Shown one piece after another: positions 7,222 through 47,764 of a stretch of DNA of 64,000 nt (position 1 is its first letter; every line of letters starts with the position of its first letter). A program made the translations under genes and the position numbers. Under the pieces are notes generated by a model, which saw only the letters and a program-made list of their open reading frames with translations, made no database searches and was not told the origin of the DNA. This DNA is from a virus, in IMG/VR virus record IMGVR_UViG_3300027906_002394, positions 1 through 64,000 of that record; one strand, given 5' to 3'.

Positions 7222-7826
7222 TGGTAGTAGATAAGTCAAAAATAATTTTAACCGATTGTGATGGAGTCTGCCTAGATTGGGAGACTGCATTTTTCACATG
7301 GATGGCTCACAATGGAATGAACCCTGTGGGCGAAGATTGGAAACTCAAATATAAAGTTTCCCAGAGATTTGGAGTCTCACCAAAAGAAGGTCAGAGATTG
7401 ACCAACCAATTTAACAGTAGTGCTGCTATTGGATTTTTGCCCCCTCTTAGGGACGCTCAGTACTACATCAAGAAACTTGCTGAAAAACATGGGTACAGAT
7501 TCGTTGCTGTGACTAGTTTGCATAGTGACCCATATGCCCAAGAGTTGAGAACGCAAAACCTTAAAAAGTTATTTGGAGAGGACACATTCATCGAGTATCA
7601 CTATTTGGATTGTGGTGCGGATAAAGATGAGATTCTATGGCAATTAGCACAGAAGTATGAAGGTGCGCCTTGGATTGAGGATAAATATGTCAATGTTGAA
7701 GTTGGCATGGAGTGTGGGTTTGAAGGATTTTTAATAGAACACGGGCATAACCTAAACTATAAAGGTGATGCCACTATCGTCAAAAACTGGGAGCAAATAT
7801 ATGACGCGCTTGCTAAGAGAAATTGA
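7215..7826 (+). CDS. HAD-superfamily phosphatase-like protein
   Basis: About 203 residues (ATG 7215; ATG 7221, overlapping the upstream TGA, is equally possible). HAD motif I is ILTDCDGVCLDW (Asp nucleophile plus DG), motif II is AVTSLHS, and a later ENTIRE-style acidic pair appears in APWIEDKYVN. A helical cap lies between (WETAFFTWMAHNG...LRDAQYYIKKLAEKHG). HAD proteins of this size in phages are usually nucleotidases or related phosphatases acting on nucleotides. The C-terminus overlaps the next gene by 26 bases. Confidence 0.7.
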   Translation: MVMVVDKSKIILTDCDGVCLDWETAFFTWMAHNGMNPVGEDWKLKYKVSQRFGVSPKEGQRLTNQFNSSAAIGFLPPLRDAQYYIKKLAEKHGYRFVAVTSLHSDPYAQELRTQNLKKLFGEDTFIEYHYLDCGADKDEILWQLAQKYEGAPWIEDKYVNVEVGMECGFEGFLIEHGHNLNYKGDATIVKNWEQIYDALAKRN

Positions 7827-14450: not shown

Positions 14451-14703
14451 ATATAAACAAAACGCTAGTGAACGCATTATTGATTTGGATGGCCCAGATG
14501 GTAATGCCTTTAACCTGTTGGCAATTGCAACTAAGTTGCTACGCGAACATGAGAACTTTAACCTTGATGATAAGTCACAACATATGATTATCAAAGAGAT
14601 GAAGTCGAATGACTATAACAATTTGGTTAAGACCTTTAACCAATATTTTGGTAGTATCTTTATTTTGGAAACTACCAATGAGGAGTTGTTGGCTGAATTA
14701 TGA
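14440..14703 (+). CDS. Conserved small phage protein (DLDGPDGNAFNLL family)
   Basis: 87 residues (ATG 14440 or 14443). The signature IIDLDGPDGNAFNLLAIATK followed by helix, then MKSNDYNNLVKTFNQYFGS, is one I associate with a small family present in many phages and some bacteria, of unknown function. It overlaps the upstream membrane protein and the downstream ParB-like gene. Confidence 0.65.
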   Translation: MMIRYKQNASERIIDLDGPDGNAFNLLAIATKLLREHENFNLDDKSQHMIIKEMKSNDYNNLVKTFNQYFGSIFILETTNEELLAEL

Positions 14704-15809
14704 GGATTAATATCAATCAACAAAAAAGGTTCAAACAGAAAGACATCGATGAGGTCAAGAAATCTTTCCCTTTTCACTACTATCCAGAGCGTTATAAAGA
14801 CTTGGATGGTATTGAGGTCAAAGACTACTTGACACTTGTGAACTTTGATGATGTAATTATGCCAGATGATAAGGAAGGTAACTATCAACCGCATCGTTTG
14901 TCTGGACTCAATCCAAAGTATGATGAGATTGCAAGGAGTATTCATACACAAGGATATAAACTTGGAGAAGGTTGCCCTCCTGCTTTGTTTTATTCCAATG
15001 AACTTGCTAAGTTTGAGGTTATAACTGGATTCACGCGAGGCGGTATTCTTAGAAGTAATTATGTAGAGAATTTCCCTGTTACGACATATCGGGCAAAAAA
15101 AGGTGCTTCTGATAAGGAAGTTGCCAGTGCTTTGTCATTATATGGTCAATCATTCCAAGAGCATGACCCATATGGCGAACAGAAAAAGGGAGATATCTAC
15201 AGAGAAGTCTCTCTTGCTATCGATAGGGGATGGATAGAAAACAACTTTGATGCTATACATGATAGGGTCTATTCCCAATGTAAGATGTCTGATACGGTCA
15301 AAGATAGGATAGTCAATTCAGTAAAGAACCAATATGACCCAGATGAAATAGTAATATCATGGGGTAATGCTTCGGACTTAGGTAATAGGAAACCAGAAAC
15401 TTTCTTGGAACAGGTTGTTGGTAAATTAGATGGTGGCACAGATGGTGTCAAGTATCTTCTATACAGCGCCAGTAATCCACCTAAAACCTATGTTTCTATT
15501 TTAGAGAGGTATGACCCAACTAGAGAAAATCGTGTGGTGCTTCATACTGGTACATTAAAATCTTCTGGTAATCTTTTAGAACATTATGAGAACTTGGTGT
15601 ATGGATTCATAGATAGCTTTAGAAAGTATATGCTTCTACACTCACCCTTTTATCAGCACAAGGCTTATAAAAACCAAGGTGTAGGTAATAATCTTTTATT
15701 CGGGCCAATCACACTTTATGCTGTATTGCCCGCGTTATCTAAGTCTCATGATATATCAAGATTAGTTACATTTGATGATAATGGAAAATTATTTCAAGAA
15801 AACGCTTGA
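14700..15809 (+). CDS. ParB/sulfiredoxin-like domain protein
   Basis: 369 residues. The N-terminal third has a ParB-like layout: LSGLNPKYDEIARSIHTQGY (about 68-87), then PPALFYSNELAKFEVITGFTR, then NFPVTTYRA. This resembles the ParB/Srx fold, where a parameter loop precedes GxxR. The rest is helical, unrecognised, and ends TFDDNGKLFQENA. Phage proteins of this kind may be nucleases or NTP-dependent DNA-binding proteins. Its TGA is embedded in the -35 box of promoter P6. Confidence 0.5.
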   Translation: MRININQQKRFKQKDIDEVKKSFPFHYYPERYKDLDGIEVKDYLTLVNFDDVIMPDDKEGNYQPHRLSGLNPKYDEIARSIHTQGYKLGEGCPPALFYSNELAKFEVITGFTRGGILRSNYVENFPVTTYRAKKGASDKEVASALSLYGQSFQEHDPYGEQKKGDIYREVSLAIDRGWIENNFDAIHDRVYSQCKMSDTVKDRIVNSVKNQYDPDEIVISWGNASDLGNRKPETFLEQVVGKLDGGTDGVKYLLYSASNPPKTYVSILERYDPTRENRVVLHTGTLKSSGNLLEHYENLVYGFIDSFRKYMLLHSPFYQHKAYKNQGVGNNLLFGPITLYAVLPALSKSHDISRLVTFDDNGKLFQENA

Positions 15810-15834
15810 CATTTGCAAAAAAGATCAGTATAAT
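15806..15834 (+). promoter_or_regulatory. Sigma70-type promoter P6 for RNA-2
   Basis: TTGACA at 15806-15811, 17 bp, TATAAT at 15829-15834. GATC lies in the spacer just ahead of the -10 box (15823). The upstream gene ends inside the -35 box, and a T4-type late box follows at 15847. Confidence 0.85.
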
Positions 15835-15840
15835 GGTTGA

Positions 15841-16170
15841 AACTTGTATAAATAAACATGCGGTGGACGGTATTCGTACAATCCGTTTCCAACGGACAAG
15901 GTTTGGTGAAACTCCAAGACGCCGCTCCAATTTTTACGGTTGTAGTCCTAGGCATAGACTCCATCCTGTCACACTCAAAACTGCCTCGACTGAACTCACA
16001 AATTTTAGTAGGTCGTTAAATACACAACGAGGCCTGAACAAGCCGCTGGTAGCACACAGACCGAAAAAGGTTCAGTCCATCAGACTAACAGAGAGCAGTG
16101 ATGGTCTCGCATAACTTAGATGGACAAAGAGAGCTGGGCATCTCTCTTCATCCTAAACTGCCCACTTTTA
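15841..16170 (+). ncRNA. Structured non-coding RNA or long 5' leader (RNA-2)
   Basis: About 330 bases between promoter P6 and the small lipoprotein gene. Complementary segments are TCCGT 15882-86 with ACGGA 15892-96; GCCTCG 15983-88 with CGAGGC 16028-33; CTGAAC 16034-39 with GTTCAG 16070-75; CCATC 16077-81 with GATGG 16100-04; AAGAGAG 16127-33 with CTCTCTT 16142-48. The loop of that last hairpin carries TGGGCA (16135-40), which matches TGCCCA (16159-64), making an H-type pseudoknot immediately before the ribosome binding site of the lipoprotein gene. It could be a stand-alone RNA or a riboswitch-like leader. I match it to no known family. Confidence 0.65.
15847..15854 (+). promoter_or_regulatory. 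T4-type late promoter box TATAAATA
   Basis: Exact TATAAATA 13 bases downstream of the P6 -10 box. In T4, late promoters consist essentially of this octamer and need gp55, gp33 and the clamp; a gp33 gene is present in this window. It would let RNA-2 and the lipoprotein be transcribed late as well as early. Confidence 0.6.
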
Positions 16171-16183
16171 GAAGGACAAAACA

Positions 16184-16345
16184 ATGAAATACTTGAGTAT
16201 ATTAGTTGTGTGTATTATGATAACAGCATGTAGCGGTAGAATAAACCTTATCGCCGAATTACCAAAAGACCAAGACTTAGATGTTTCCATTAAAACATCA
16301 ACTTCTGGTAAGCTGCACAATAGTAATACACCAACAGCAGAATGA
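16184..16345 (+). CDS. Small lipoprotein
   Basis: 53 residues, ATG at 16184 with GAAGGA upstream. The N-terminus is a lipoprotein signal: basic-hydrophobic KYLSILVVCIMITAC with the lipobox ITAC-S at residues 14-18. The mature peptide (about 36 residues) is short, Thr/Ser-rich and ends NTPTAE. Such small lipoproteins can be outer spanins or superinfection-exclusion factors; no partner inner spanin is obvious beside it. Its translation may be controlled by the pseudoknot just upstream. Confidence 0.7.
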   Translation: MKYLSILVVCIMITACSGRINLIAELPKDQDLDVSIKTSTSGKLHNSNTPTAE

Positions 16346-16459: not shown

Positions 16460-16750
16460 ATGAAAAAAACTTCACAAGCAACAAAGGTTATTTCAGCCTT
16501 GCAGAAAACAGACCAAGGTCTGACTGCTAATGAAATGAAAAATAGGTTTGGCGTAACTAATGCTAGAGCATTGGTGACACACCTTCGACAGAACGGTTTC
16601 GCCATTTATTTAAACAAAACCCCAGCGTATACTGACAGGAATGGCAATGTACGAAAAGGTGTCTCTAGATACCGTTTGGGAACACCTTCTAGGGCAATTA
16701 TTGCCGCTGGATATAAAGCTCTCGCAGCTACTAGAGGTTTAGTAGCTTAA
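16460..16750 (+). CDS. Winged-helix/HTH DNA-binding protein
   Basis: 96 residues. The HTH is VISALQKTDQGLTANEMKNR, then FGVTNARALVTHLRQNGFAI (about residues 9-50), followed by a beta-wing (TPAYTDRNGNVRKGVSRYRL) and the ending GTPSRAIIAAGYKALAA. I recognise the GTPSR-h-h-x-A-x-Y ending and the LTA-x-x-h-x-x-x-FGV-x-N-x-RA pattern from T4-like cyanophage proteins of this size. A transcription regulator of phage genes is likely. It is followed by a clear terminator, so it is probably a highly expressed short transcript. Confidence 0.75.
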   Translation: MKKTSQATKVISALQKTDQGLTANEMKNRFGVTNARALVTHLRQNGFAIYLNKTPAYTDRNGNVRKGVSRYRLGTPSRAIIAAGYKALAATRGLVA

Positions 16751-16789
16751 GAGTTTAACCGAAACCGTTAACCAAACACAAATGGATAA

Positions 16790-16818
16790 AGGGGCAGTTT
16801 AAGACTGCCCTTTTTTTT
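16790..16818 (+). terminator. Rho-independent terminator
   Basis: GGGCAGT (16792-16798), loop TTAAG, ACTGCCC (16804-16810), then eight T. It closes the transcript of the HTH gene. Confidence 0.92.
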
Positions 16819-25344: not shown

Positions 25345-26096
25345 TGAATGTAGCAATTATTGGTTATGGGTTTTGTGGTAAAGCAACCGAGAGAATTCTA
25401 AAAAAGGTTGCCGGAATAAAAAGAATTCAAATTCAAGACCCCAAGTATAATAAAAAAATATCTCCAGATGAGTGGGATATGATTAGGTATGCTTTTGTAT
25501 GTGTGCCTACCCCCTTAACCAAAAACATGAGTATTATGGATCATTGGTATGAAGGTGATTTGTTTGATATGTCCATTATAGAAGAAGCAATATCTACTAT
25601 ACCGAACAATGTAATAACAGTTATTCGTAGTACCATTGGCCCAGAATCTATAAAGAAAAATTGGGTTCATTGGCCAGAGTTCTTGCGAGAAAGTCATTGG
25701 GAAGAAGACGCGGATGATAAGTCTATCCCTATTATTATTGGTGATGGAAACCAAGAGATGTCAGATTGGTTCCCAGACCGACATACAATTTTTACTACTG
25801 CTAAAACAGCAGCGATGTATAAGTTGTCTAGGAACGCGATGTTAGCTGCTAAAGTAACTCTCGCCAACTACATTCAGAGAGTTTGTCAAGAGTATGATAC
25901 CGATTATATTGATGTAGCACAGTTGTTAAAGGAACACGCGAATCTTGGAACCTCTCATTGGGAGGTGCCAGGCCCAGATGGTGATTATGGGTTTGGTGGT
26001 TCTTGTTTTCCCAAAGATACAACCCATCTTGCTTCGCTAACAGGTGGACACAATATATTTGATTATGTTTTGAGGTGTAATGAACGAGATCGCTAA
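25344..26096 (+). CDS. Truncated nucleotide-sugar dehydrogenase (UDP-Glc/GDP-Man family)
   Basis: 250 residues. N-terminal NAD site MNVAIIGYGFCGKATE, VCVPTPLTKN, STIGP, then the mid-domain, and the active-site loop GFGGSCFPKDTTHLASL, whose Cys is the catalytic thiol of UDP-glucose and GDP-mannose dehydrogenases. The family is normally about 400-450 residues with a C-terminal nucleotide-sugar domain, which is missing here, so this is an NAD and central domain only. A longer relative lies at 39886. It may oxidise an unusual sugar substrate or need a partner. Confidence 0.75.
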   Translation: MNVAIIGYGFCGKATERILKKVAGIKRIQIQDPKYNKKISPDEWDMIRYAFVCVPTPLTKNMSIMDHWYEGDLFDMSIIEEAISTIPNNVITVIRSTIGPESIKKNWVHWPEFLRESHWEEDADDKSIPIIIGDGNQEMSDWFPDRHTIFTTAKTAAMYKLSRNAMLAAKVTLANYIQRVCQEYDTDYIDVAQLLKEHANLGTSHWEVPGPDGDYGFGGSCFPKDTTHLASLTGGHNIFDYVLRCNERDR

Positions 26097-27357
26097 ATAC
26101 TTAGACGATATAACCAGAAGAAACAATGCAATAGGTAAAGGTTTCTGTGTATTGAAGTGGTGGCACTTAGAAATGCACTTAGGTACAGGTAACTATCATT
26201 CCTGTTTTCATTGTCCCCAACAAAATCTTAAACTTGATGAAGATATGCACAACACTCTTCACAAGATGCAACAAAGAAAGACCATGTTAGAAGGTGGTAG
26301 ACCAGATGAGTGTTCTTATTGTTGGAAGGCGGAAGATAGTGGCGCTGTAAGTCCTAGAACAACATTGTCTTCCATATACACTCACATGGAAGAGGATATT
26401 ATAGAAACAACTGCTAAATTGGATTGGGATGATTATGTATATCCAAAATATTTGGAAATGAGTTTTTCTAATACATGTCAAATGAAATGTTCTTATTGCG
26501 CTCCCTCTTTGAGTTCTACCTTATTACAGGAAATCAAAAAGGAAGGGGCATACCCATTATCAGACCCAGAGAATCGCGGTCAATACGAATTAAATGGTAC
26601 TGAAGAACTTTATAAGGATGATGATAACCCTCTTCTGGATAAGTTCTGGGATTGGTTTGATGAAGCGAGAAAACATCTTGATACATTGAGAATTACAGGC
26701 GGAGAACCTTTATTACACAAGAGTACTTTCGAGATGATGGATAGATTGCGTGGGGAGAGTATTAACTTCCATGTAAACAGCAATCTATCAGTTTCTAATA
26801 GAAGAGTGACAGAAGCATGTAACTTATTACCAGCGAAGTCTAAGATATATGCTAGTGTTGATACATTTGGACAACAGGCTGAGTGGATTAGACATGGACT
26901 TAATTGGGACTTGTTTGACCAAAATGTTCTTACTGTTATTAATCATAAAATCCCATTGAGTTTTATGACAACATTTTGTTTATTAAGTATACCAAGATTT
27001 AAAGACTTTTTGTATTATGTTATACAGTTAAAAGATATTGGGGATGTTTTGATTGATACACCATTTATGACTAATCCCCCACACCTGTCTTGTCTTATAA
27101 TGGATGATGATATGAGGGAAACATTAGAAGATAGTTACCAGTTTATGTCATATAATAAAGAATTCAATCACGCGGAAGTTGTAAAGTTTGAAAGATTACT
27201 TAAATGGGTAGATGCAAATAGGTTTACTGGAGAACGCCTAAATAGTCATAGAAAAGATTTTAAAACATTTGTCGATGAACATGACAAACGCAGAGGCACG
27301 GATTGGCACAAAGCGTTTCCAGAGTTGACATATTTTTATGAGTTATGTGATGTCTAA
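26080..27357 (+). CDS. Radical SAM protein 1 of 7 (twitch/SPASM-like)
   Basis: 425 residues, 17-base overlap with the upstream gene. The radical SAM motif is CQMKCSYC (Cys 133, 137, 140) in LEMSFSNTCQMKCSYCAP, followed by RITGGEPLL (the GGEP strand). An N-terminal cysteine set (23, 42, 45, 78, 81, including DECSYCWKAED) probably holds an auxiliary cluster. The C-terminus ends RRGTDWHKAFPELTYF. It would cleave SAM to a 5'-deoxyadenosyl radical. The substrate is unknown. It belongs to group A (with radical SAM 2 and 3), sharing a C-x-x-C-W motif. Confidence 0.85.
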   Translation: MNEIAKYLDDITRRNNAIGKGFCVLKWWHLEMHLGTGNYHSCFHCPQQNLKLDEDMHNTLHKMQQRKTMLEGGRPDECSYCWKAEDSGAVSPRTTLSSIYTHMEEDIIETTAKLDWDDYVYPKYLEMSFSNTCQMKCSYCAPSLSSTLLQEIKKEGAYPLSDPENRGQYELNGTEELYKDDDNPLLDKFWDWFDEARKHLDTLRITGGEPLLHKSTFEMMDRLRGESINFHVNSNLSVSNRRVTEACNLLPAKSKIYASVDTFGQQAEWIRHGLNWDLFDQNVLTVINHKIPLSFMTTFCLLSIPRFKDFLYYVIQLKDIGDVLIDTPFMTNPPHLSCLIMDDDMRETLEDSYQFMSYNKEFNHAEVVKFERLLKWVDANRFTGERLNSHRKDFKTFVDEHDKRRGTDWHKAFPELTYFYELCDV

Positions 27358-28732
27358 ACCTAATGAATTCTGGATTGAACAACTAAAACAGAAAAGAGAA
27401 AAGATTAATCAAATTAGTCCTTCTTTTTGTTCTGCTAAGTGGTTACAGACTACTCTGTATTTGCAGAATGGTTATAATCACTCATGTCACCATCCTTCAC
27501 CACATAAAATACCTGTGGAAGAAGTATTAGAGAATCCAGCAGCTCTTCATAATAGTAAGTATAAGAAACAACAAAGAATTAAGATGCTCAATGGTGAGAG
27601 ACCTAGTGAGTGTGATTACTGTTGGAGAATAGAAGACCAAGGTAAGGGACACTTCTCTGACCGTCATTATAAGACTGCTGATTGGTGGTCATGGGATAAG
27701 GTTGATGTTATTGCAACCGACAACCCAAGTAAAGATGTGTATCCAACATATCTAGAAGTATCGTTCTCAAACGCATGTAATTTCGCGTGTGCTTATTGTT
27801 CACCAGAGATAAGTTCTGAGTGGATGAAAGATATAGAAAAGAATGGTGACTATCCTGTGGAGTTTGGTTCTGGTAATTTAGACTATTTAAAGTCTGTGGA
27901 AAAGTTTCCATATAAACACTCTGACCCGAACCCATATGTTGATGCATTTTGGAAATGGTTTCCAGAAGCACTTCCTCATCTAAGAGTATTTCGTATTACT
28001 GGTGGTGAACCCACTATGAGTAAAGATGTGTGGAAAGTAATAGATTACATATATGATAATGCACAACCAGAACTGTCTATTGCAATTAATAGTAATCTTG
28101 GTACAGACCCAAGACTTATACAGAGACTTGTTGACGCATGTAACAAATTAAAAGACAAAGTTAAACAAATTGAGATATATACAAGCTGTGAAGCAACTGG
28201 AGAACAAGCAGAATATATTAGAGATGGATTAGACTATGATTACTGGCGTGGTAATGTAGAGAAGGTTTTATCAGAGACAGATGCTAATGTAGCAATGATG
28301 ACTACATTAAACATATTGAGTATGACTACATTTGAGAACTTCATTGAAGACATAATGCAGTTAAGAATCAAATATAATAAAGATTTAGCAAATAACAGAA
28401 TACCGTTAAGTATAAACTATTTAAGATTCCCGCCTCATTTACAATGTACTCTATTGGATAGAAATACTAGAATATCCTATGCATCTGACTATGAGTTAAC
28501 CGCGAAGATTTGGTTGAAATATAATTCACCAGACAAGTTCGCAAGAATTTATTTGGAAGAGTATGACCAGATACAGAGGTTCTGCGAATACCTTAGGCAA
28601 GAACATAAAGGTGCTGAAAAATATAGAGCAGACTTTGTAAATTATATAAAAGCCTACGATATCAGAAGGTCGAAAAACTTTAGCAAAACTTTTCCAGAAT
28701 ATAAACATTTATTGGAGTGGTGGGATGCCTAA
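27350..28732 (+). CDS. Radical SAM protein 2 of 7
   Basis: About 460 residues (ATG 27350; 27338 is an alternative). The cluster-binding motif is CNFACAYC (Cys 143, 147, 150) after LEVSFSNA. N-terminal CHHPSPHKIP at 46-55 and ECDYCWRIED at 88-97 are shared with radical SAM 3 and, in part, 1. FRITGGEPTMS is the GGEP strand. It ends RRSKNFSKTFPEYKHLLEWW. Paralogy with its neighbours is clear, yet the sequences are too different for a recent duplication. Overlaps the small gene that follows by 8 bases. Confidence 0.85.
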   Translation: MSKPNEFWIEQLKQKREKINQISPSFCSAKWLQTTLYLQNGYNHSCHHPSPHKIPVEEVLENPAALHNSKYKKQQRIKMLNGERPSECDYCWRIEDQGKGHFSDRHYKTADWWSWDKVDVIATDNPSKDVYPTYLEVSFSNACNFACAYCSPEISSEWMKDIEKNGDYPVEFGSGNLDYLKSVEKFPYKHSDPNPYVDAFWKWFPEALPHLRVFRITGGEPTMSKDVWKVIDYIYDNAQPELSIAINSNLGTDPRLIQRLVDACNKLKDKVKQIEIYTSCEATGEQAEYIRDGLDYDYWRGNVEKVLSETDANVAMMTTLNILSMTTFENFIEDIMQLRIKYNKDLANNRIPLSINYLRFPPHLQCTLLDRNTRISYASDYELTAKIWLKYNSPDKFARIYLEEYDQIQRFCEYLRQEHKGAEKYRADFVNYIKAYDIRRSKNFSKTFPEYKHLLEWWDA

Positions 28733-28952
28733 AAAATATATTCATGTAAACATGCACAAGATTCGTGCTAATAAAAAACACGGAACAAACGAACCTGTTC
28801 TTACAGTAAAAGAAGGAAGAAAAAATACCTATGGACATAGTGTAAAGATACATGGCCCTAGTGAGGTAATATACGGTGGGAATGATAAACCATTGTTACC
28901 CTGTGGTGCGAGAGTTGTTATAATGACAGAAGCGGAGATTGAAATTGAATAA
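28725..28952 (+). CDS. Small conserved phage protein (HVNMHKIRANKKHG)
   Basis: 75 residues between radical SAM 2 and 3. The sequence is basic at the start (IHVNMHKIRANKKHGTNEPV) and strand-rich later (KIHGPSEVIYGGNDKPLLPC). I recall very similar small proteins in cyanophages, away from radical SAM genes, so it is probably not a dedicated peptide substrate, although its position invites that idea. Function unknown. Confidence 0.6.
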   Translation: MPKKYIHVNMHKIRANKKHGTNEPVLTVKEGRKNTYGHSVKIHGPSEVIYGGNDKPLLPCGARVVIMTEAEIEIE

Positions 28953-30447
28953 AGAATATGACTTGATAAAGTATCGTAAAGATATTCTTGATACTAAGTC
29001 AAAGAGTTTTTGTGGTGCGAAGTGGTACAACGCTACTACATGGTTAGGTAGTGGTACTACTGCTAGTTGTCATCACCCCCCAGCACATAAGATTCCGTTA
29101 CACGAGATTGCAGCTGACCCATCCGCTATTCATAACACACAACACAAGAAGGCAATGCGTAAGATGATGCAACGCGGAGAGAGACCGCGTGAGTGTGAGT
29201 ATTGTTGGAAAGTTGAAGATATGAAAGATGAAGCTGTTAGTGACAGAGTTTTTAAATCAATCATATACACCAATGAAGATTTGAAGAAGGCACACGAGGC
29301 AGACTTTAACGATAACACATTATTAAAAACATTCGAGATTGCATTTGACCGAACATGTAACCTTGCTTGTTCTTATTGTAACTCTAGTTTCTCTACCACA
29401 TGGGCTAAGGATATAAAGAAACATGGCCCATATCAAAATATGGTATCAGATGGTGCAGCTGCCTTTCAACACGATGGTGCGTGGGCAGACCCATATGGTA
29501 AAAAGGAAGAGAACCCATATGTGACTGCTTTCTGGGATTGGTGGGAAGATGGACTATCAGAAAGTCTTGAGGAATTGAGAGTTACAGGTGGTGAACCGTT
29601 GATGTCTGACCAAGTATGGAAGTTGTTTGATTGGTTTGAAGATAATCCATCTGATATGAGATTCGCAGTAAACTCTAACCTTATTGCGAAGAAAAGTATC
29701 GTTGATAGACTAATAGAAAAATCAAAAGGTGTTAAGAAGTTTCATCTTTATACTAGTTGTGAAGCAACAGGTAAACAAGCTGAGTATATAAGGGACGGAC
29801 TTGACTATGAACTCTGGACTAACAATATAACGCGATTCATTAAAGAAGGTAACTATGAAGGCATCAATATAATGATGACTATTAATAGTTTATGTTTGTT
29901 TAGTATAACAGACTTCTTAGATGATGTATTTAAACTAAAAGAATTAACAAAAAGTAAGACACCTGTCTTTAGTGTTAACTTATTACGATTCCCTAGTTTC
30001 CAAAGTCCTCTTGCACTACCAGACCACATTAAAGACTATCTTAGAGAGAATCTATCTAGTTGGTATGAAGAAAATAAAGACAGACCATATTGGCATGACT
30101 TTGAAAAAGCAAGTGTTGAAAGGTTAATAGATTATCTGGTTATTGTTGATGCACCACATAGAAGAACAAGTGACAAGATGACCCTGTGGAGAGACTTCAA
30201 GACCTTTTATGGTCAATATGATAAACGAAGAGATAAAAGCATTTCTGTATTCCCAGAGATTCTTACAGATTGGATAGACACTCTTCCAGATACAGAAACA
30301 AAACCTATAACAGTTATGCCAAGTGGGGATAGTACAGAACAGTACGCGGATGACCCAGACTTGAAGAAGATTGCAGATGAAGAAGGATGGGTATTGAAAC
30401 CAGACAATAAAAACATAGATGAAGCATTGGGGGATTACGACAAATGA
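28945..30447 (+). CDS. Radical SAM protein 3 of 7
   Basis: About 500 residues. TTG at 28945 follows GGAG by 8 bases; TTG 28939 is possible, and no ATG fits. Cluster motif CNLACSYC (138, 142, 145) follows FEIAFDRT. N-terminal CHHPPAHKIP and ECEYCWKVED match radical SAM 2 closely. LRVTGGEPLMS is the GGEP strand. After the core the family tail RRDKSISVFPEILTDW ends near residue 440, and about 60 further acidic residues are unique to this copy. No other start signal is present, which is unusual for this operon. Confidence 0.82.
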   Translation: MNKEYDLIKYRKDILDTKSKSFCGAKWYNATTWLGSGTTASCHHPPAHKIPLHEIAADPSAIHNTQHKKAMRKMMQRGERPRECEYCWKVEDMKDEAVSDRVFKSIIYTNEDLKKAHEADFNDNTLLKTFEIAFDRTCNLACSYCNSSFSTTWAKDIKKHGPYQNMVSDGAAAFQHDGAWADPYGKKEENPYVTAFWDWWEDGLSESLEELRVTGGEPLMSDQVWKLFDWFEDNPSDMRFAVNSNLIAKKSIVDRLIEKSKGVKKFHLYTSCEATGKQAEYIRDGLDYELWTNNITRFIKEGNYEGINIMMTINSLCLFSITDFLDDVFKLKELTKSKTPVFSVNLLRFPSFQSPLALPDHIKDYLRENLSSWYEENKDRPYWHDFEKASVERLIDYLVIVDAPHRRTSDKMTLWRDFKTFYGQYDKRRDKSISVFPEILTDWIDTLPDTETKPITVMPSGDSTEQYADDPDLKKIADEEGWVLKPDNKNIDEALGDYDK

Positions 30448-30881
30448 AAATATTGATATGTGGATTGCCTGGCTCTGGGAAAACTACTCTTGGAAGAGAG
30501 TTGTCATATTATTTTGATATCCCTCTTATAAACGCAGATGTCCAAAGAGAATTTTATGATAATTGGGATTTCTCTGAGACAGGTAGAATGATACAAGCTT
30601 TCCGTATGTCAAAATATGATTTCGGGATATTAGATTTTATTGCACCAATTGAACATTATAGAAAGTTGGTTGCAGCTGATTGTACTATTTTTATGAACAC
30701 GATAGATGAAGGTAGATACGAAGACACAAACAAAATATTTGAACCCCCACTATCGTGTGATTTTGAGGTAAAAGAATGGATAGAACTAAACCAACTACGC
30801 AGCTCCTTGGAAGGTTTCAACCGTGGCATAGAGGGCATACGGAGTTATTTAAAAGAGCAATTTCCAAAACTGGTCAAGTAA
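30444..30881 (+). CDS. APS-kinase-like P-loop kinase (N-terminal half of a split bifunctional enzyme)
   Basis: 145 residues. Walker A is ICGLPGSGKTTLGREL (residues 4-19), followed by PLINADVQREFYDNWDFS, where APS kinases have their D-x-x-R region, and IFMNTIDEGRYEDTNKIF, a lid-like segment. I recall marine phage proteins in which this kinase is fused to a following nucleotidyltransferase. Here the last 35 residues overlap the start of that domain in another frame, so they are probably not part of the kinase fold. It would phosphorylate a small molecule. Confidence 0.65.
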   Translation: MKILICGLPGSGKTTLGRELSYYFDIPLINADVQREFYDNWDFSETGRMIQAFRMSKYDFGILDFIAPIEHYRKLVAADCTIFMNTIDEGRYEDTNKIFEPPLSCDFEVKEWIELNQLRSSLEGFNRGIEGIRSYLKEQFPKLVK

Positions 30882-31126
30882 TAATACAGTTAAGGGAAAC
30901 GCCTTATGATGAGGACAACCCATATAGCCTACAAGAAAGACGGAGTATGATTTCAATTGCACTTAATCAATCTGGATTTGAGTATGGTGTACATTATGAA
31001 ATTATGGGAGTACCTAATGTAACGCATATTACTTATGGTAGAGATGTTGGATATAAAATTGAAAAGGAGTTATTGTTAGAGAATATAGAAGATATTTCTG
31101 CTACAAAAATTCGTAATGAAGAATAG
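30776..31126 (+). CDS. Nucleotidyltransferase, HxGH type (C-terminal half of the split enzyme)
   Basis: 116 residues. The cytidylyltransferase/NMN adenylyltransferase signature is GRFQPWHRGHTELFKRAI (residues 12-29), with a terminal ISATKIR matching the second nucleotide-binding motif. The core GVPNVTHITYGRDVGYKIE is typical of the marine phage version. It overlaps the kinase gene by 106 bases in the -1 relative frame. It activates a small phosphorylated compound with a nucleotide, so kinase plus transferase could build an activated head group or sugar. The start GAATGG has no strong Shine-Dalgarno, consistent with coupling. Confidence 0.7.
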   Translation: MDRTKPTTQLLGRFQPWHRGHTELFKRAISKTGQVIIQLRETPYDEDNPYSLQERRSMISIALNQSGFEYGVHYEIMGVPNVTHITYGRDVGYKIEKELLLENIEDISATKIRNEE

Positions 31127-32417
31127 ACCTTACCTTTGCACCGCGCCATGGACGCATACTTATGTTTCCCCTCAAGGAGAGAGGAGACTGTGTTGTGCTA
31201 GCAGAGAAGAGGCAACATTTCAAAAACAGTATTTAGATAGTGGGACATCGGAAGGTAAATTTGAACCACAGTCTTTAGAAGAACATTGGAATAGTGATTA
31301 TATGAAAGACATTCGTAAAAGAATGTTATCTGGTGAAAAACTGAAACAATGTCAAGTATGCAATGACCAAGTTTTAAACCTACATACATATCGTCAATAT
31401 TTTACAGAGACATTGTTCCCCCACAAAATAGAAGACATTATAGCGACTACGCGAGAAGATGGACATTATGATAAGATGCCAGTCTCGTATGATTATCGTA
31501 TTTCAAATCTATGTAACTTTAAATGTCGGATGTGTGGGGAACAATTGTCTTCAAGCTGGGAGGCAGAGAAGAAAAAACATAATCTCATCAATGTTAAAGA
31601 AGACCCTTGGATGGAACCTACTACTAGAAAGAAGATATCCAATTTCCAAGAGGAAGTGTTAGAAGAGGAATTACAAAAGGCAGTTGATAATAAAACCATA
31701 GAGGAAATATATTGGGTTGGTGGTGAACCTTTGATGTGGGAAAGACATTGGACTATTATGCAACAATTAGTAGACAATGGACACGCGAAGAATGTTACTA
31801 TTCGTTATAATACAAATTTAAGTAGAGTCAAATATAAGGATTATGACTTATGGGAGATGTTACCCCATTTTAAGAATGTTAATATATGTGCCAGTATTGA
31901 TGGTGCGTATGATGTAGGGGAATATATCAGAGATGGACTAGTATGGAGTGAGTGGATAGAAAATTTCAAGTCTGGTATGTTTTTGATAGACCAGTTTGGT
32001 GATGATGCGATGGTCTTTGATGTAACATTAACTACGCCAGGCTTATTTCATCTTGATAAATTGTTTAATGTTGTTAAATCATTAGATGTAAAGTCATACT
32101 TTAAATTTACCTATGCATTTGACCCTAGTGTTGTTATGTCTCCGTTTTGTTTACCTAAAGATGTGCTTTTACCAAAAGTTGACGCATTATTATCACATAT
32201 TGAACCACAACTTACATGGAAGACAAAAGTTTATAAAGATTCTCTGGTTAACCTAATAAATAGAGAGTCATTTGATGAACAATGGCCTGACACTTATAAA
32301 GATGGTTTGAAACGCGGAAAGTCATTTCAAGAATTCCTTGATAATATAAGAAACAGCAAAATGAAGTTTGTAGACACACTTCAAGGTAATGCTGTGGATT
32401 GGTGGGGTAGAATATGA
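31116..32417 (+). CDS. Radical SAM protein 4 of 7
   Basis: 433 residues. Cluster motif CNFKCRMC (133, 137, 140) in RISNLCNFKCRMCGEQ. N-terminal CTAPWTHTYVSPQGERRLCC (8-27) is the group B signature, a C-x3-W-x-H followed by CC. CQVC at 79-82 is the second element. YWVGGEPLM is the GGEP strand. Unlike the other copies it lacks the C-terminal TFPE tail and ends with AVDWWGRI. It overlaps the nucleotidyltransferase by 11 bases. Confidence 0.85.
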   Translation: MKNRPYLCTAPWTHTYVSPQGERRLCCASREEATFQKQYLDSGTSEGKFEPQSLEEHWNSDYMKDIRKRMLSGEKLKQCQVCNDQVLNLHTYRQYFTETLFPHKIEDIIATTREDGHYDKMPVSYDYRISNLCNFKCRMCGEQLSSSWEAEKKKHNLINVKEDPWMEPTTRKKISNFQEEVLEEELQKAVDNKTIEEIYWVGGEPLMWERHWTIMQQLVDNGHAKNVTIRYNTNLSRVKYKDYDLWEMLPHFKNVNICASIDGAYDVGEYIRDGLVWSEWIENFKSGMFLIDQFGDDAMVFDVTLTTPGLFHLDKLFNVVKSLDVKSYFKFTYAFDPSVVMSPFCLPKDVLLPKVDALLSHIEPQLTWKTKVYKDSLVNLINRESFDEQWPDTYKDGLKRGKSFQEFLDNIRNSKMKFVDTLQGNAVDWWGRI

Positions 32418-33646
32418 GTAATACTTTCTGTCCATTACCTTGGAATCATTTAGCAACACATCCACATGGTATGTGTACTCTTTGTTGCGAATCAGAACAG
32501 ACATTGAATAAGTCAGCTGCGAAGAATGACAATGAGTTAGTAACATTACGAAACACTAACTATGAACTTAGTGAAATAACCAATAGTGAAAGTTTCAGTA
32601 AGGTTAGACTACAAATGCTCAATGGCGAAAAACCAACCGAATGTAAAAAGTGTTGGGAAGCGGAAAGTGTTGGCAATAGAAGTAAGAGATATTATGAGTC
32701 ACGCAAACTTCCTATGACTTTGGAAGACGCCAAAAAAATTACGAATGATGATGGAACCTTAAAGGAGGTTAAATATGAGTTCGTGGAACTACGCCTTGGT
32801 AATCATTGTAATGTTATGTGCCGTACTTGCAACCCTTACTCCTCTTCTCGTTGGGTAAAGGAATGGGATGTTATATATCCAGAAGAACCTGTTATAAAGG
32901 ATTACATATCTCAGTATAACATTAACTGGCCATTGGAACAAGATTTCTGGGACAGTCTAATAAATTATTGTGATAATTTGAAGGTGTTATATATTAACGG
33001 TGGTGAACCTTTTCTTATAGACAAACATTTTGCCTTTTTGGAAACTTTGGTTCAAAGAGGAACTTCCAAAGACATTGAAATTGTATATTCTACTAACTGT
33101 ACAATTATTAACCACACATATGAAGACATATGGAAAGAATTTAAATCTGTACAGTTTATGTTATCTATTGATGATATAGGTGAAAGGAACGAGTACATAA
33201 GAACCTATACCAAGTGGCCTAAGGTCTTAGACTTTATTGATTGGATGGATGATATAACTGATAACAATGAAAACTTGAATTATAATATATTACAAACAGT
33301 ATCTACATATAATGTCTATTATCTTCCAGAGTTTTATGACTACTTTGCAGGCAAAGATATAAGTCATAACTTTGTTAAAGACCCTGCTCACTTTGACCCA
33401 TTGATACTACCCCAGACAGTACAGAAAGCTATATTGGAGAGGACTAAAGGTTATCTTTGGCCTCCAGATTTACAACGAGGTTATAATGACCTAAAAAATT
33501 ATTTTAATATAGAAGGCATCTCTTATACTGACCTAGACTCTATGAAAGTTTTCTTTGAGAAGACACGCGCTATGGATGTAACTAGGAAAGATAATTTTGA
33601 AATAACCTTCCCAGAATTTTATGAGTTGATTAAAGATTATGAGTGA
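32414..33646 (+). CDS. Radical SAM protein 5 of 7
   Basis: 410 residues. Cluster motif CNVMCRTC (132, 136, 139) in LRLGNHCNVMCRTCNP. N-terminal CPLPWNHLATHPHGMCTLCC (6-25) and ECKKCWEAES (77-86) define group B. INGGEPFLID is the GGEP strand. The C-terminus is TRKDNFEITFPEFYELIKDY, the family tail. Overlaps radical SAM 4 by 4 bases and radical SAM 6 by 8 bases. Confidence 0.85.
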   Translation: MSNTFCPLPWNHLATHPHGMCTLCCESEQTLNKSAAKNDNELVTLRNTNYELSEITNSESFSKVRLQMLNGEKPTECKKCWEAESVGNRSKRYYESRKLPMTLEDAKKITNDDGTLKEVKYEFVELRLGNHCNVMCRTCNPYSSSRWVKEWDVIYPEEPVIKDYISQYNINWPLEQDFWDSLINYCDNLKVLYINGGEPFLIDKHFAFLETLVQRGTSKDIEIVYSTNCTIINHTYEDIWKEFKSVQFMLSIDDIGERNEYIRTYTKWPKVLDFIDWMDDITDNNENLNYNILQTVSTYNVYYLPEFYDYFAGKDISHNFVKDPAHFDPLILPQTVQKAILERTKGYLWPPDLQRGYNDLKNYFNIEGISYTDLDSMKVFFEKTRAMDVTRKDNFEITFPEFYELIKDYE

Positions 33647-34874
33647 TAAGAAGAATCTTTGTATGTTACCGTGGGTACATTTACACACATGGCCGAATGG
33701 TAATGTGTATCCCTGTTGTATTACACCCATGAAATATATTGCTGGTAATCTAAACAACGAAAGTTTAGAAGATGTCTATAATAGTGACTTGATAAAAGAT
33801 ATCCGTTTGAAGATGTTAAAAGAAGAAAGACATGATGCGTGTGCTAGATGTTATCTACAAGAGGATGCTGGTGGCCACTCTATGAGACATAGGGCAAATA
33901 AGAGTTGGAAACATTATGAGAATTTGATTGAGACAACACAAGATGATGGTACAGTAGAAGAAATGAAACTTCCATATTGGGACTTTAGGTTTTCTAACAT
34001 ATGTAACTTCAAATGCCGTAGTTGTGGCCCTCAGTTGAGTACTGGTTGGTATCCAGATATAAAGAAGATTGCTGTATTAGAAACTGGTGAATCGTTTTTA
34101 CCAGACGATGTTCCAAAAGGTAATACATTTGATTTGTGGGAACAGATAGAACCGCATTTTGAATCAGTAGAAGAAATATATTTCGCTGGTGGTGAACCTC
34201 TTATAATGGAAGAACATTATCGCATATTAAAGAGACTTGATGAGATGGGCAAACATGATGTACTCATTAGATATAACACAAACTTTAGTGAGATGCGATA
34301 TAAAGATTTACATGTATTGGAGTTCTGGCCAAGGTTCAAGAATATAGAGATTGGTGCTAGTATAGATGGTATGAAGGAACAGGGTGAATTCATTCGTAGT
34401 GGTTTTAGTTGGCAACAATTCATCGACAATAGAGAGAAGATGAAAGAGACTTGTCCACACGCGAACTTCTATGTTAACTGTACAATTAGTATACAGAACT
34501 CTTATCACATAGTACCCTTCCATCTTATGTTAGTTGAACTGGGGTTGATAGATGACTATGATGCCTTTAATGTTAATATCGTAACTGAACCGCCTCATCT
34601 TGATGTTAGGATATTACCAGAGAACCATAAAGAAGCTTTATCGAAACTATATGACCTTCATATTGATTATATGTCAAAAAATAGTAAGTGGGTTGCTAAA
34701 CAAGGATTTGAAAGTTTAAAGAATCATTTGCTTACTAAGGATAGAGTATTAGAGGATAATAGGAAAGGATATCTTGCTAGATTTGAATATAAGATGAGAC
34801 AGTTGGATGATATAAGGAACGAGGACTTCCAGAAAACATTCCCAGAACTAGAGGATTTATATAATGCCATTTAA
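33639..34874 (+). CDS. Radical SAM protein 6 of 7
   Basis: 411 residues. Cluster motif CNFKCRSC (122, 126, 129) in FRFSNICNFKCRSCGPQ. N-terminal CMLPWVHLHTWPNGNVYPCC (8-27) and CARCYLQEDAGGHSMR (68-83) belong to group B. YFAGGEPLIMEEH is the GGEP strand. Ends IRNEDFQKTFPELEDLYN. Similar to radical SAM 4 in the ASIDG-x-x-x-x-GE-x-IR segment. Confidence 0.85.
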   Translation: MSDKKNLCMLPWVHLHTWPNGNVYPCCITPMKYIAGNLNNESLEDVYNSDLIKDIRLKMLKEERHDACARCYLQEDAGGHSMRHRANKSWKHYENLIETTQDDGTVEEMKLPYWDFRFSNICNFKCRSCGPQLSTGWYPDIKKIAVLETGESFLPDDVPKGNTFDLWEQIEPHFESVEEIYFAGGEPLIMEEHYRILKRLDEMGKHDVLIRYNTNFSEMRYKDLHVLEFWPRFKNIEIGASIDGMKEQGEFIRSGFSWQQFIDNREKMKETCPHANFYVNCTISIQNSYHIVPFHLMLVELGLIDDYDAFNVNIVTEPPHLDVRILPENHKEALSKLYDLHIDYMSKNSKWVAKQGFESLKNHLLTKDRVLEDNRKGYLARFEYKMRQLDDIRNEDFQKTFPELEDLYNAI

Positions 34875-35988
34875 AGAAAAAGATAGACCCAGAGATGATG
34901 ATTATTTCTTTGCGGAGGATTATGCTGGTGTTAATGAATGTAAGGACGCTATAATAACTCTAAGACTACGCAATAGTAGAGATGATAGTATTGAACCTAT
35001 GGAACTGAATATATCATTAGATGATAATCACGCGGTAGACATTTGGTATCAGAGATTTAAACACGAACTAGAAACCAAAGCTTTCCTAAGAAAAGAACAT
35101 GTCTTTATGGGAGAGAGCACCCTTACTACAGAAGACATGATAGAAAAAGTTAATAATACATTAGACCATATATCCAAGTTTGATTTTGTTGCTGAACAAT
35201 GGACAAGGTGGCCAGACTATGTTAAGGCAGACCAAAGAAATGTTCTTGACCAACCTCTTAGAAATAATCCAGATATATCAGAAAGGTTGAGTATAGAAGA
35301 TTTTAAGGATGGTAATGATAATAAGAAGATGAATGTTATCCATAACTATTTTCCTATGTTGTCTGGCCCAGCAGAAAGAACTACTGCACATTTATATGTT
35401 GCTTCCCCAGATGTCCAAGCAAGTATATGTCGTTTGAACTTAGAAGTTCACGAACTTCATACTACATTGCAGAATGATGAACAGGCAGACTTCAACATGC
35501 ATATTAATGTGTCATGGCAAAGAGCTCCAAAAAAGTTACCAGAACTACCAGATTGTTTTAATGACTTGTTTACAAAATATGCTAAATTCGGTGATGTCTT
35601 ACTTGGGTATCCTCAGATTGGAAAGACACATATAGAAGCATACGCGGAAGACGATGAAGAATTAGAAGATGAACATGTAGAACCAATTAAGTTTTTATCT
35701 GGAGACATGTTAATTAAATTTGCTACAGACCAACATGAGAGTTGGGTAAAGGGGTTTGATGAGTGGTTAGTTGAACAGGGACTAGACCCAGAAGATAAAA
35801 AAGGTAGATATGGATTTGCTAAATTAGGTAGGGTTGTTGATGCTGATTTGGAGTTTGTAGAAAATAATATTTCTGGTAAGTATGATGATATAGATAGAAT
35901 TTCTGTTGATGGTAAACATTATTATTATGACTACAGTAGGTTTGATGATGACTATGAGGAAAGATTTTTAGGATATTTACATGACTGA
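34864..35988 (+). CDS. Protein of unknown function inside the radical SAM array
   Basis: 374 residues with no radical SAM motif and only two cysteines. It is acidic, with an N-terminal FKEKDRPRDDDYFFAEDYAG, a central YFPMLSGPAERTTAHLYVAS (about 157-176), a strand-rich middle, and DYEERFLGYLHD at the end. It overlaps radical SAM 6 by 11 bases and radical SAM 7 by 8 bases, so it is translated with them. I do not recognise it. It could be a partner or carrier for the array, a role suggested only by position. Confidence 0.65.
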   Translation: MPFKEKDRPRDDDYFFAEDYAGVNECKDAIITLRLRNSRDDSIEPMELNISLDDNHAVDIWYQRFKHELETKAFLRKEHVFMGESTLTTEDMIEKVNNTLDHISKFDFVAEQWTRWPDYVKADQRNVLDQPLRNNPDISERLSIEDFKDGNDNKKMNVIHNYFPMLSGPAERTTAHLYVASPDVQASICRLNLEVHELHTTLQNDEQADFNMHINVSWQRAPKKLPELPDCFNDLFTKYAKFGDVLLGYPQIGKTHIEAYAEDDEELEDEHVEPIKFLSGDMLIKFATDQHESWVKGFDEWLVEQGLDPEDKKGRYGFAKLGRVVDADLEFVENNISGKYDDIDRISVDGKHYYYDYSRFDDDYEERFLGYLHD

Positions 35989-37162
35989 TAAACTGTGCGT
36001 ATTACCTTGGGTTCATACAGAGTTCACTACAGATGGAACTGCTAACCCTTGTTGTCTTTATACAGGCGCACCAATGGGAAATCTAAAACAAGATAATTTT
36101 CTTGATGTATGGAACGGAGACACTTATCAAAATTTGAGAAAGGAATTTCTTAATGGCGGACAACCAAAAGGATGTTCTATGTGTTGGGAAGGAGAGGATG
36201 CTGGTTATCAGTCAAAACGATTACAGGATAATAAGAGATTTGAAAAACAACTAGAAGAAATAAAGAAAAATAAAAACTATATTGCTACTGATACACCGAA
36301 ATATCTTGATTTGAAATTTGGTACATTATGTAACTTAAAGTGCCGTACTTGTGGTAGTATTAATAGTTCAAAATGGCAGACAGATGAAAAGAAATTGTAT
36401 GGAAGAATACTAAACAAAAAAGACCCATTGTGGATTGATAAAAATCCTAATATATGGGATGAGTTGTTTGAAATTATGCCTCTGGTAGAACAGATGGACT
36501 TCACAGGTGGTGAACCCTTTATGATAGACCAACACTTTGAATTGTTACGAAAAGTTGTTGAATCTGGTCACGCGGAACACATATCATTACATTATAACAC
36601 AAATGGGTCAATCCGTCCAGATGAAACTATATTTAATATGTGGCAAGAGTTCAAGTCTTGTGAAGTGATGTTTAGTATTGACGGAATATTCAAGAAATTT
36701 GAATATATGAGACACCCAGCTAAATGGGATGAAGTGTGGGGTAATTATAATTACTTTAAGTCACATGATTGGATGCATATACAAGTATGTCATACAGTCA
36801 GTCTTTATAATGTATATTACCTAGATGAGTTTATAGACCTGTTTGGTAGAGACAATATATACCTAAATCTTTTGCATTTCCCTAAACAATATTGTATTAG
36901 GAATATGCCAGATGCATGTAAAAAACAGGTTGAAGAAAAACTTATAAATATTCCAGATGTGAATGATATCATATCCTTCATGAATCAAGAAGCACAATAT
37001 GACAAGCTTGACCTTGGGTTTTTGCCTGTTACAGAAAGATTAGATGGAATAAGAAATGAAAGTTATAGTGAAACCTTTTCGGAATTTTATAGGATATTAA
37101 TAGATGGCGGAATCGGACGAGAACCTTGGAACCCTAAGCAGTACTTTGGAAAGATTAGTTAG
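35981..37162 (+). CDS. Radical SAM protein 7 of 7
   Basis: 393 residues. Cluster motif CNLKCRTC (117, 121, 124) in LKFGTLCNLKCRTCGSI. N-terminal CVLPWVHTEFTTDGTANPCC (6-25) and GCSMCWEGED (64-73) are group B. FTGGEPFMIDQH is the GGEP strand. The tail IRNESYSETFSEFYRIL resembles that of radical SAM 5 and 6. Its last 59 bases overlap the N-terminus of the following large gene, the longest overlap between array neighbours. Confidence 0.85.
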   Translation: MTDKLCVLPWVHTEFTTDGTANPCCLYTGAPMGNLKQDNFLDVWNGDTYQNLRKEFLNGGQPKGCSMCWEGEDAGYQSKRLQDNKRFEKQLEEIKKNKNYIATDTPKYLDLKFGTLCNLKCRTCGSINSSKWQTDEKKLYGRILNKKDPLWIDKNPNIWDELFEIMPLVEQMDFTGGEPFMIDQHFELLRKVVESGHAEHISLHYNTNGSIRPDETIFNMWQEFKSCEVMFSIDGIFKKFEYMRHPAKWDEVWGNYNYFKSHDWMHIQVCHTVSLYNVYYLDEFIDLFGRDNIYLNLLHFPKQYCIRNMPDACKKQVEEKLINIPDVNDIISFMNQEAQYDKLDLGFLPVTERLDGIRNESYSETFSEFYRILIDGGIGREPWNPKQYFGKIS

Positions 37163-45847: not shown

Positions 45848-46609
45848 ATGCCAAGACGCAATACAAACCTACAAGTAATTGAGAATTTAAATTCTGATGT
45901 ACAGAAGGTGAAAAGAAAATCAACTTTAAAAATGCGTATTGAGGATTTAATTACAATTGATGCACTCACAGAAACCCAAGGACATTTTTTCGCAGAGTAC
46001 AAAAAAGATTGTAGAGCAATGTTATTACATGGATGCGCTGGTACAGGAAAAACATTTATTGCCCTGTACCGAGCATTAGAACAGGTTTTACAGAGAGGAA
46101 ACCCATATAAGAAAGTAGTCGTTATAAGGTCAGCAGTCCCATCAAGAGAAATAGGACATTTGCCAGGCGATGAAACTGAGAAGACTGCGGTGTACATGCA
46201 ACCATATATTGATATGTGTACTGCATTGTTCCCCCAAAAACAACAGGCATTCCAGAGACTAATCGAACAGAAATATGTAGAATGGATGATTACATCATTT
46301 GTAAGAGGAATTACATTGGATAATTCCATTATTATCGTGGATGAGTGTCAAAATATGAATGACATGGAGATTAATTCCATTATAACTCGCGTAGGACATA
46401 ATAGTAAGATTATATTCTGTGGAGACTTCCGTCAAACTGACCTATATAAGAAAGGCGATTTAAGTGGATTGCAGAAATTCATGGTAATTGCTGAAAATAT
46501 GCCTTCTTTTAGGACTTTTGAGTTTAGTGAGGACGATATTGTCCGTTCTGACCTTGTAAAAGAGTATTTAATCTCAAGAATCCGCTATGAAGAGCAATAT
46601 AGGACTTGA
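45848..46609 (+). CDS. phoH: PhoH-like ATPase
   Basis: 253 residues. Walker A is MLLHGCAGTGKTFIAL (about 59-74), Walker B IIIVDECQNMNDMEI (about 161-175), motif GRVGHNSKIIFCGDFRQTD near 185-200 as ITRVGHNSKIIFCGDFRQTD. It has the core of E. coli PhoH without the extra N-terminal domain, as in other marine phages. It is an ATPase/helicase-like protein linked to RNA metabolism in some bacteria, and a common marine phage gene. Confidence 0.92.
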   Translation: MPRRNTNLQVIENLNSDVQKVKRKSTLKMRIEDLITIDALTETQGHFFAEYKKDCRAMLLHGCAGTGKTFIALYRALEQVLQRGNPYKKVVVIRSAVPSREIGHLPGDETEKTAVYMQPYIDMCTALFPQKQQAFQRLIEQKYVEWMITSFVRGITLDNSIIIVDECQNMNDMEINSIITRVGHNSKIIFCGDFRQTDLYKKGDLSGLQKFMVIAENMPSFRTFEFSEDDIVRSDLVKEYLISRIRYEEQYRT

Positions 46610-47320: not shown

Positions 47321-47345
47321 CTTCTGGCCCATCTTATACTATAAT
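47317..47345 (+). promoter_or_regulatory. Sigma70-type promoter P9 for the tmRNA
   Basis: TTGACT at 47317-47322, 17 bp, TATAAT at 47340-47345. The nuclease stop overlaps it. Transcription would start near 47352, immediately at the tmRNA precursor. Confidence 0.85.
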
Positions 47346-47352
47346 ATAAATA
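47345..47352 (+). promoter_or_regulatory. T4-type late box overlapping P9
   Basis: TATAAATA begins at the last base of the P9 -10 box, giving TATAATATAAATA. Early and late transcription of the tmRNA would then start within a few bases of each other. Confidence 0.55.
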
Positions 47353-47590
47353 TAACTTGACTCTATGAAACGAATTGAAAGGTTGACAGGACGGGGGTGC
47401 GATTCCCCCCGCCTCCACCAATTTATCCTTATAGACCCGACTAAGGGGGCGAATAGGATCGACTGGGACTTATTAGAGGAGTGGAGAGTTCGGAGAGGAA
47501 GCTGCCGTAAGTGCAACGCAACCATAAACGCAGAAGATAATACTGCTTATGAGGACTACGCTTTAGCGGCGTAGAATCGCTCGGGGTTTT
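47353..47590 (+). ncRNA. ssrA: Circularly permuted two-piece tmRNA
   Basis: The acceptor piece comes first, ending at 47420 in a T-arm (GGGGGTGCGATTCCCCC) and GCCTCCACCA. A 24-base spacer (47421-47444) follows, then the coding piece opens with GGGGGCGAATAGGATCGAC at 47445, the usual tmRNA 5' sequence. GGGGGC pairs with GCCTCC and gives a G-U pair at the third position, the alanine identity element. The tag frame ends at TAG 47572-47574 and reads AEDNTAYEDYALAA if the resume codon is GCA 47530. An in-frame GCA at 47518 would lengthen it by four residues. Two-piece tmRNAs are known in alphaproteobacteria and some cyanobacteria. It would rescue stalled ribosomes and tag the nascent chains for degradation. 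Confidence 0.93.
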
Positions 47591-47591
47591 G

Positions 47592-47628
47592 GAGACAGTT
47601 CCTAGCACCAGAATACTGTCTCGTTTTT
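47592..47628 (+). terminator. Rho-independent terminator after tmRNA
   Basis: GAGACAGT (47592-47599) and ACTGTCTC (47615-47622) form a perfect 8-bp stem with a 15-base loop, followed by G and five T. Confidence 0.88.
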
Positions 47629-47653
47629 ATCTCATAAAGAGAAGGAGGAAGAT

Positions 47654-47764
47654 ATGTGGTTAATTACAGGACTCGTAATAGGAGTTGTAGTTGGTGCATG
47701 GATTAAAGACCGAAAAGGTTGGTTGGATTTTCTTGACACATTATTTGACAAGATACCATTCTAA
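47654..47764 (+). CDS. Tiny membrane protein
   Basis: 36 residues, ATG at 47654 preceded by GAAGGAGGAAG, an excellent ribosome binding site. Residues 2-15 (WLITGLVIGVVVGAW) form one membrane span, followed by IKDRKGWLDFLDTLFDKIPF. It lies just before the lysin gene and could be a holin-like or pinholin-like peptide; single-span and short, so this is only a suggestion. Confidence 0.6.
   Translation: MWLITGLVIGVVVGAWIKDRKGWLDFLDTLFDKIPF

Follow-up and report, generated by a model that had tools for sequence, protein, structure and literature searches.

A glycine tRNA-like RNA with a conserved pseudoknotted 3' domain in a T4-like marine phage

Several described RNAs depart from the canonical tRNA design while keeping part of it. 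The non-proteinogenic tRNA-Gly of Staphylococcus aureus, which serves peptidoglycan, has lost GG18-19 and kept glycine identity (PMC4052509), while in tRNA-Pyl and metazoan mitochondrial tRNAs the D loop is small and lacks GG, and the T loop lacks TΨC (PMC7609411). Here we describe a locus with features of both in a 64,000-nucleotide (nt) stretch of viral DNA (the window), positions 1 to 64,000 of the 82,960-base IMG/VR record IMGVR_UViG_3300027906_002394. A conserved RNA of ~310 bases, presumably transcribed from promoters of its own, extends from 15860 to about 16165. Its first 70 nt are, as judged from aligned relatives, a tRNA-Gly-like structure (TLS), and an AU-rich linker separates this head from a 3' domain containing two pseudoknots. 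The whole is a tRNA-like RNA for which membership of a new class is a realistic possibility. The source phage is T4-like and marine; the window holds T4-type late boxes, a tail-tube gene, gp32-type genes and, at 47325-47665, a permuted alpha-type transfer-messenger RNA (tmRNA). Its tail-tube protein shows less than 60% identity to homologs in named phages.

Because minimum-energy folding of the region gave no support beyond that of shuffled sequences (z = 0.05), relatives were sought. Tail-tube and pattern searches of IMG/VR located L036 (G011, 137 kb), L037, L024 (G016, 161 kb) and L038, whose RNAs are 88%, 87% and 83% similar and identical, respectively, to that of the window. A diverged sixth record, L057, was retrieved with the protein encoded downstream (HTH_39) as bait, which brings to five the further IMG/VR records, all of them fragments, in which the RNA recurs. 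A protein-coding interpretation was rejected and the region is regarded as non-coding, since no reading frame is open throughout it in all relatives.

The head consists of an acceptor stem GCGGUG/CGCCGC followed by U73 and a CCA end, a D arm ACG(GUAUU)CGU with a 3-base-pair stem and no GG in its loop, an anticodon arm UCCG(UUUCCAA)CGGA with the anticodon UCC, and a T arm UUUGG(UGAAACU)CCAAG of five base pairs, whose 7-nt loop has G55 instead of TΨC. An alignment (A4) and a covariance model (R1) were built for it. Over five aligned sequences, four of them distinct, pairing is found in 97.4% of cells and five pairs are changed on both sides; the covariation score was matched by 0 of 500 shuffles, and sliding the partner by 1-3 columns lowered the pairing to 32-47%. 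The compensatory changes lie in the D, anticodon and T stems, the loops are invariant and the CCA is intact, so that the cloverleaf with its CCA end is backed by covariation. It also carries the complete bacterial glycine identity set, namely U73, G1-C72, C2-G71, G3-C70, C35 and C36 (PMC9976931, Table 1). Neither ARAGORN nor the Rfam model RF00005 reports it as a tRNA, and it has neither GG18-19 in the D loop nor a TΨC (UUCRANU) T loop.

The 3' domain comprises, in order, hairpin P1, pseudoknot PK1, hairpin P2, helix P3 and pseudoknot PK2. The initial annotation had placed a pseudoknot just ahead of a lipoprotein gene and named covariation in related phages as a check; the pseudoknot is indeed there, preserved by compensatory changes in L057, and covariation was found in both the head and the 3' domain. 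The tRNA-like head had gone unnoticed in that annotation. PK2 is a classical H-type pseudoknot with loops of 1, 1 and 10 nt, built from S1 (AAGAGAG 16127-16133 with CUCUCUU 16142-16148) and S2 (UGGGCA 16135-16140 with UGCCCA 16159-16164). In L057 these two interleaved helices become AGAGUG/CACUCU and UGGGGC/GCCCCA, with three compensated pairs, and PK1 becomes AGACA/UGUCU, likewise compensatory. Compensations in P2, P3 and PK2 were counted, and those in PK1 come from visual inspection of the alignment; for the 3' domain the evidence from L057 represents a single lineage.

Two pattern scans, one for a late box plus GCGG..CCGCUCCA and the other for AGUACGAUUC..GAAU..CCGCUCCA, revealed more distant TLS (family B, as opposed to the window-type family A) in the phage contigs L142, L145, L147, L148, L149 and L150, with a degenerate example in L141. 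A second covariance model, R2, added further copies in L147/L150 and L145. In all nine TLS compared, GCGG/CCGC, U73, CCA and the CC of the anticodon loop are retained, and so are a D stem of three base pairs and a T loop of 7 nt whose second base is G. Several family-B members have a 5-nt 'anticodon' loop, UACCC, in a stem of 7-8 base pairs and would be unable to decode. Five of the contigs (L145, L147, L148, L149 and L150) also carry a canonical tRNA-Gly(UCC). Distant copies occur without the window-type 3' domain, those of L142, L145 and L149 among them; L142 and the window have two neighbour genes in common (38-45% identity). Families A and B are likely to form one lineage. Independent derivation from tRNA-Gly is possible, because cross-model scores are modest (17-29 bits) and a canonical tRNA-Gly scores as well, reaching 33 bits against R1. 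R1 matches in L069, L139 and L140 were discarded as ordinary tRNAs, and a match in Sinorhizobium phage Phosso, lying within a coding gene, was judged due to chance. In the genome collections the first scan gave 0 matches, the second only canonical tRNA-Gly and chance matches, and R2 found nothing. No family-B TLS was found in HTVC008M, Melnitz-2 or S-SRM01, and pf16 gave only a chance-level match (R1 was not run on these four). An RNA-like element of ~200-215 nt that has no Rfam match was seen at L147 4843-5058, at L150 2659-2874 and in L148 and L145 (minus strand). It is closed by CAUUAUUGAGAAU/AUUCUCAAUAAUG, and its loop may form a pseudoknot, ACUGUU/AACAGU; it comes after the TLS in the first three contigs but after the canonical tRNA-Gly in L145.

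The initial annotation's early promoter and T4-type late box ahead of the RNA were both recovered, as a sigma-70 promoter matching at 12 of 12 positions and the box TATAAATA (Table 1). The window contains four perfect sigma-70 promoters, this one included. Another, at 46606 (TTGACATTTGC..TATAAT), precedes an exonuclease gene and is identical to the RNA promoter in its first 11 bases. The tmRNA has a comparable arrangement, in which TTGACT and TATAAT are followed by a late box shortly before the RNA. A late box also precedes the TLS of L142 and L141, and the spacing from box to G1 is 5 nt in the window, 4 nt in L057 and 7 nt in L142 and L141. T4 late promoters are generally taken to start transcription about six bases past the box, so that the late transcript would probably begin close to G1. 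With such a start, at G1 or within 1-2 nt of it, the head could dispense with cleavage by RNase P, an enzyme that normally relies on the elbow. The early transcript would begin ~18 nt upstream of G1. The AU-rich stretch after the CCA is where 3' processing could release the head. No terminator was found between the RNA and the following genes; the likely transcription unit ends at a terminator-like site after the gene for a 96-residue winged-helix protein.

Table 1. Positions in the window of the RNA, its promoters and its downstream neighbours
Feature	Position	Strand	Remarks
Sigma-70 promoter	15806..15834	+	TTGACA (15806), 17-nt spacer, TATAAT (15834); 12/12 match; identical in L036, L037, L024
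T4-type late box TATAAATA	15847..15854	+	5 nt ahead of G1 of the tRNA-like domain; kept in L036, L037, L024, L057
tRNA-Gly-like structure (TLS)	15860..15929	+	Alignment A4, model R1, covariation counts, nine-member comparison
Hairpin P1 AGUC/GACU with PK1	15944..15960	+	Loop AGGCA (15950-15954) pairs with UGCCU (15982-15986), forming pseudoknot PK1
Hairpin P2 CGAC/GUCG	15987..16015	+	Loop of variable length; CGCC/GGCG in L057
Helix P3 CUGAAC/GUUCAG	16034..16075	+	CUGAGC/GCUCAG in L036, L037, L024; not found in L057
Hairpin CCAUC/GAUGG	16077..16104	+	Invariant among the four close sequences; no visible counterpart in L057
Terminal H-type pseudoknot PK2	16127..16164	+	Compensatory changes in L057
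Lipoprotein gene (53 residues)	16184..16345	+	Downstream neighbour; lies outside the conserved unit; missing from L057
Winged-helix protein gene (96 residues; HTH_39, phrog_4973)	16460..16750	+	Constant downstream neighbour
Intrinsic-terminator-like site	16788..16814	+	End of likely transcription unit

The RNA is independent of the lipoprotein gene that follows it in the window. In L057 no such gene comes after the RNA, the HTH_39 gene is next and the next ribosome-binding site lies roughly 60 nt further on; a leader of the lipoprotein gene, which should always stand upstream of it, is not what is seen there. Since L057 keeps the RNA without the gene, a role as riboswitch of the lipoprotein is not supported. 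Rfam, searched at gathering and relaxed E-values, returned nothing relevant for the RNA and no riboswitch covariance-model match, whether to SAM-II, SAM-V and preQ1, the classes proposed for checking, or to others. Of the two options initially offered, riboswitch-like control or an independent RNA, only the latter is supported, given the tandem promoters of the RNA itself, its occurrence in other phages and the L057 arrangement. The order RNA then HTH_39 gene is conserved in all six records, and the constant unit consists of promoter, RNA and HTH_39 gene. BLAST of the region against 50,697 phage records gave no meaningful match, the only tmRNA-model match with a tag frame is the separate tmRNA at 47325, and no description of such an RNA was found in the open-licence literature.

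On balance we regard this as probably an independent RNA of the phage, with a head that the glycyl-tRNA synthetase of the host charges and that serves a purpose other than normal decoding, joined to a separately conserved, pseudoknotted 3' domain that would act as a second module. Given its glycine identity set, the head most likely receives glycine from the host enzyme. A function away from decoding is proposed because the D-loop/T-loop elbow is lost, the loops of relatives are non-decoding and a canonical tRNA-Gly coexists with them; the last two points argue that decoding is not the function shared by the family. The head might be a glycine carrier or donor, a decoy for enzymes or toxins acting on tRNA-Gly or Gly-tRNA-Gly, or a tag for processing and stability. 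Several observations weigh against this interpretation. The link between families A and B is drawn from architecture and a short shared motif, with the cross-model scores given above, and the first TLS copy of L147 and the second of L145 have no promoter directly upstream. The UUUCCAA loop of the window is competent to decode and the family-A fragments show no other tRNA-Gly, so the head could be a working, if odd, tRNA. Finally, tRNA-Pyl serves translation despite having neither GG18-19 nor TΨC (PMC7609411).

These last points are the core of the most serious alternative, in which the head is a functional non-canonical tRNA-Gly(UCC) with a reduced core like that of tRNA-Pyl, decoding GGA and GGG during infection. 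U33, UCC and A37 are present in the UUUCCAA/G loop of every family-A member, GGA and GGG make up 282 of the 683 glycine codons in 26 window genes, and the family-A records searched contain no second tRNA-Gly. We nevertheless consider it unlikely, in view of the related TLS whose loops cannot decode and that sit alongside a canonical tRNA-Gly(UCC), the RF00005 score below detection, and a conserved 3' domain that it leaves unexplained. Alternatively, the head could be a mere processing or stability element in a long 5' leader of the lipoprotein/HTH_39 operon, where tRNA-like cleavage would define the 5' end of the 3' RNA or mRNA. The position of the terminator, after the 96-residue protein gene and not before it, and the constant RNA-HTH_39 order agree with such a leader, but processing by itself would hardly be expected to conserve C35, C36 and U73, and the TLS of L142, L145 and L149 lack this downstream module; we hold this reading to be improbable.

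That the terminal pseudoknot controls the lipoprotein gene, as a riboswitch or at the level of translation, seems very improbable. PK2 ends about 6 nt ahead of the Shine-Dalgarno sequence AGAAGGA in the window and likewise in three other distinct relatives, as such control would have it, yet L057 retains PK2 by compensation with no lipoprotein gene behind it, and no Rfam riboswitch matched. Least credible, and hardly worth entertaining, is a decayed, functionless pseudo-tRNA: the resemblance to a tRNA-Gly that no longer has its D and T loop motifs would fit decay, but not the compensated D, anticodon and T stems, the invariant loops, the intact CCA and the perfect promoter. A broader form of the independent, glycylated RNA that we prefer is more tentative, at somewhat less than an even chance. 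It would be a new phage RNA class, an elbow-less, glycylatable, non-decoding tRNA mimic acting as a donor of glycine or as a decoy (against, for instance, host toxins or nucleases whose target is tRNA-Gly) in T4-like marine and other phages, fused in this case to a new pseudoknotted effector domain.

The TLS family evades the tRNA detectors by which phage tRNAs are usually counted, yet retains all determinants of glycine charging. If its members are charged and do not decode, they would be viral RNAs that divert or mimic glycyl-tRNA in abundant aquatic bacteria. R1 and R2 are available as covariance models for finding further members.

Upstream of the RNA the coding genes vary among the records, and G016 has a tRNA-Arg at that place. 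The window's upstream gene, P6 (369 residues, 14700-15809), does not precede the RNA in L036, L037 and L050, from which it is absent. A frame resembling a relative of P6 lies ahead of the RNA in L057; used as bait, the P6 protein found no relatives in the libraries searched. The P6 stop codon falls within the -35 box of the RNA promoter. Near the RNA locus of L037, a glutamine riboswitch match (RF01739, 60 bits) was noted at 7283-7346 on the minus strand. Elsewhere in the window, 26080-37162 encodes a series of proteins in which Cys motifs recur and which look radical-SAM-like on inspection.

Compared with canonical bacterial and phage tRNA-Gly(UCC), the TLS shares the acceptor GCGG..CCGC-U-CCA, C35 and C36, the three arms and, in family A, the 7-nt anticodon loop; the D/anticodon motif AGUACGAUUC..GAAU is also found in one canonical phage tRNA-Gly (L146). 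It differs in its 3-base-pair D arm without GG18-19, in its T loop UGAAACU with G55 and in being joined to a pseudoknotted 3' RNA. The staphylococcal non-proteinogenic tRNA-Gly keeps a normal D arm; the TLS is phage-borne, and no Fem-type transferase was seen, none having been looked for. Unlike tRNA-Pyl and the mitochondrial tRNAs, the TLS has glycine identity and resides in a phage, and its family-B loops are non-decoding. The 3' tRNA-like structures of plant RNA viruses also combine tRNA mimicry with aminoacylation determinants, whereas the TLS belongs to a DNA phage, stands at the 5' end of its RNA, forms a real cloverleaf without an acceptor pseudoknot and has glycine identity. The acceptor piece of the phage's own tmRNA (47345-47425) has a T loop, UGCGAUU, with G55, an unusual base common to the TLS family. 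Like that tmRNA, the RNA described here combines a tRNA-like part with a sigma-70 promoter and late box; unlike it, the RNA has no tag reading frame that could be found, possesses a full anticodon arm and carries glycine rather than alanine identity.
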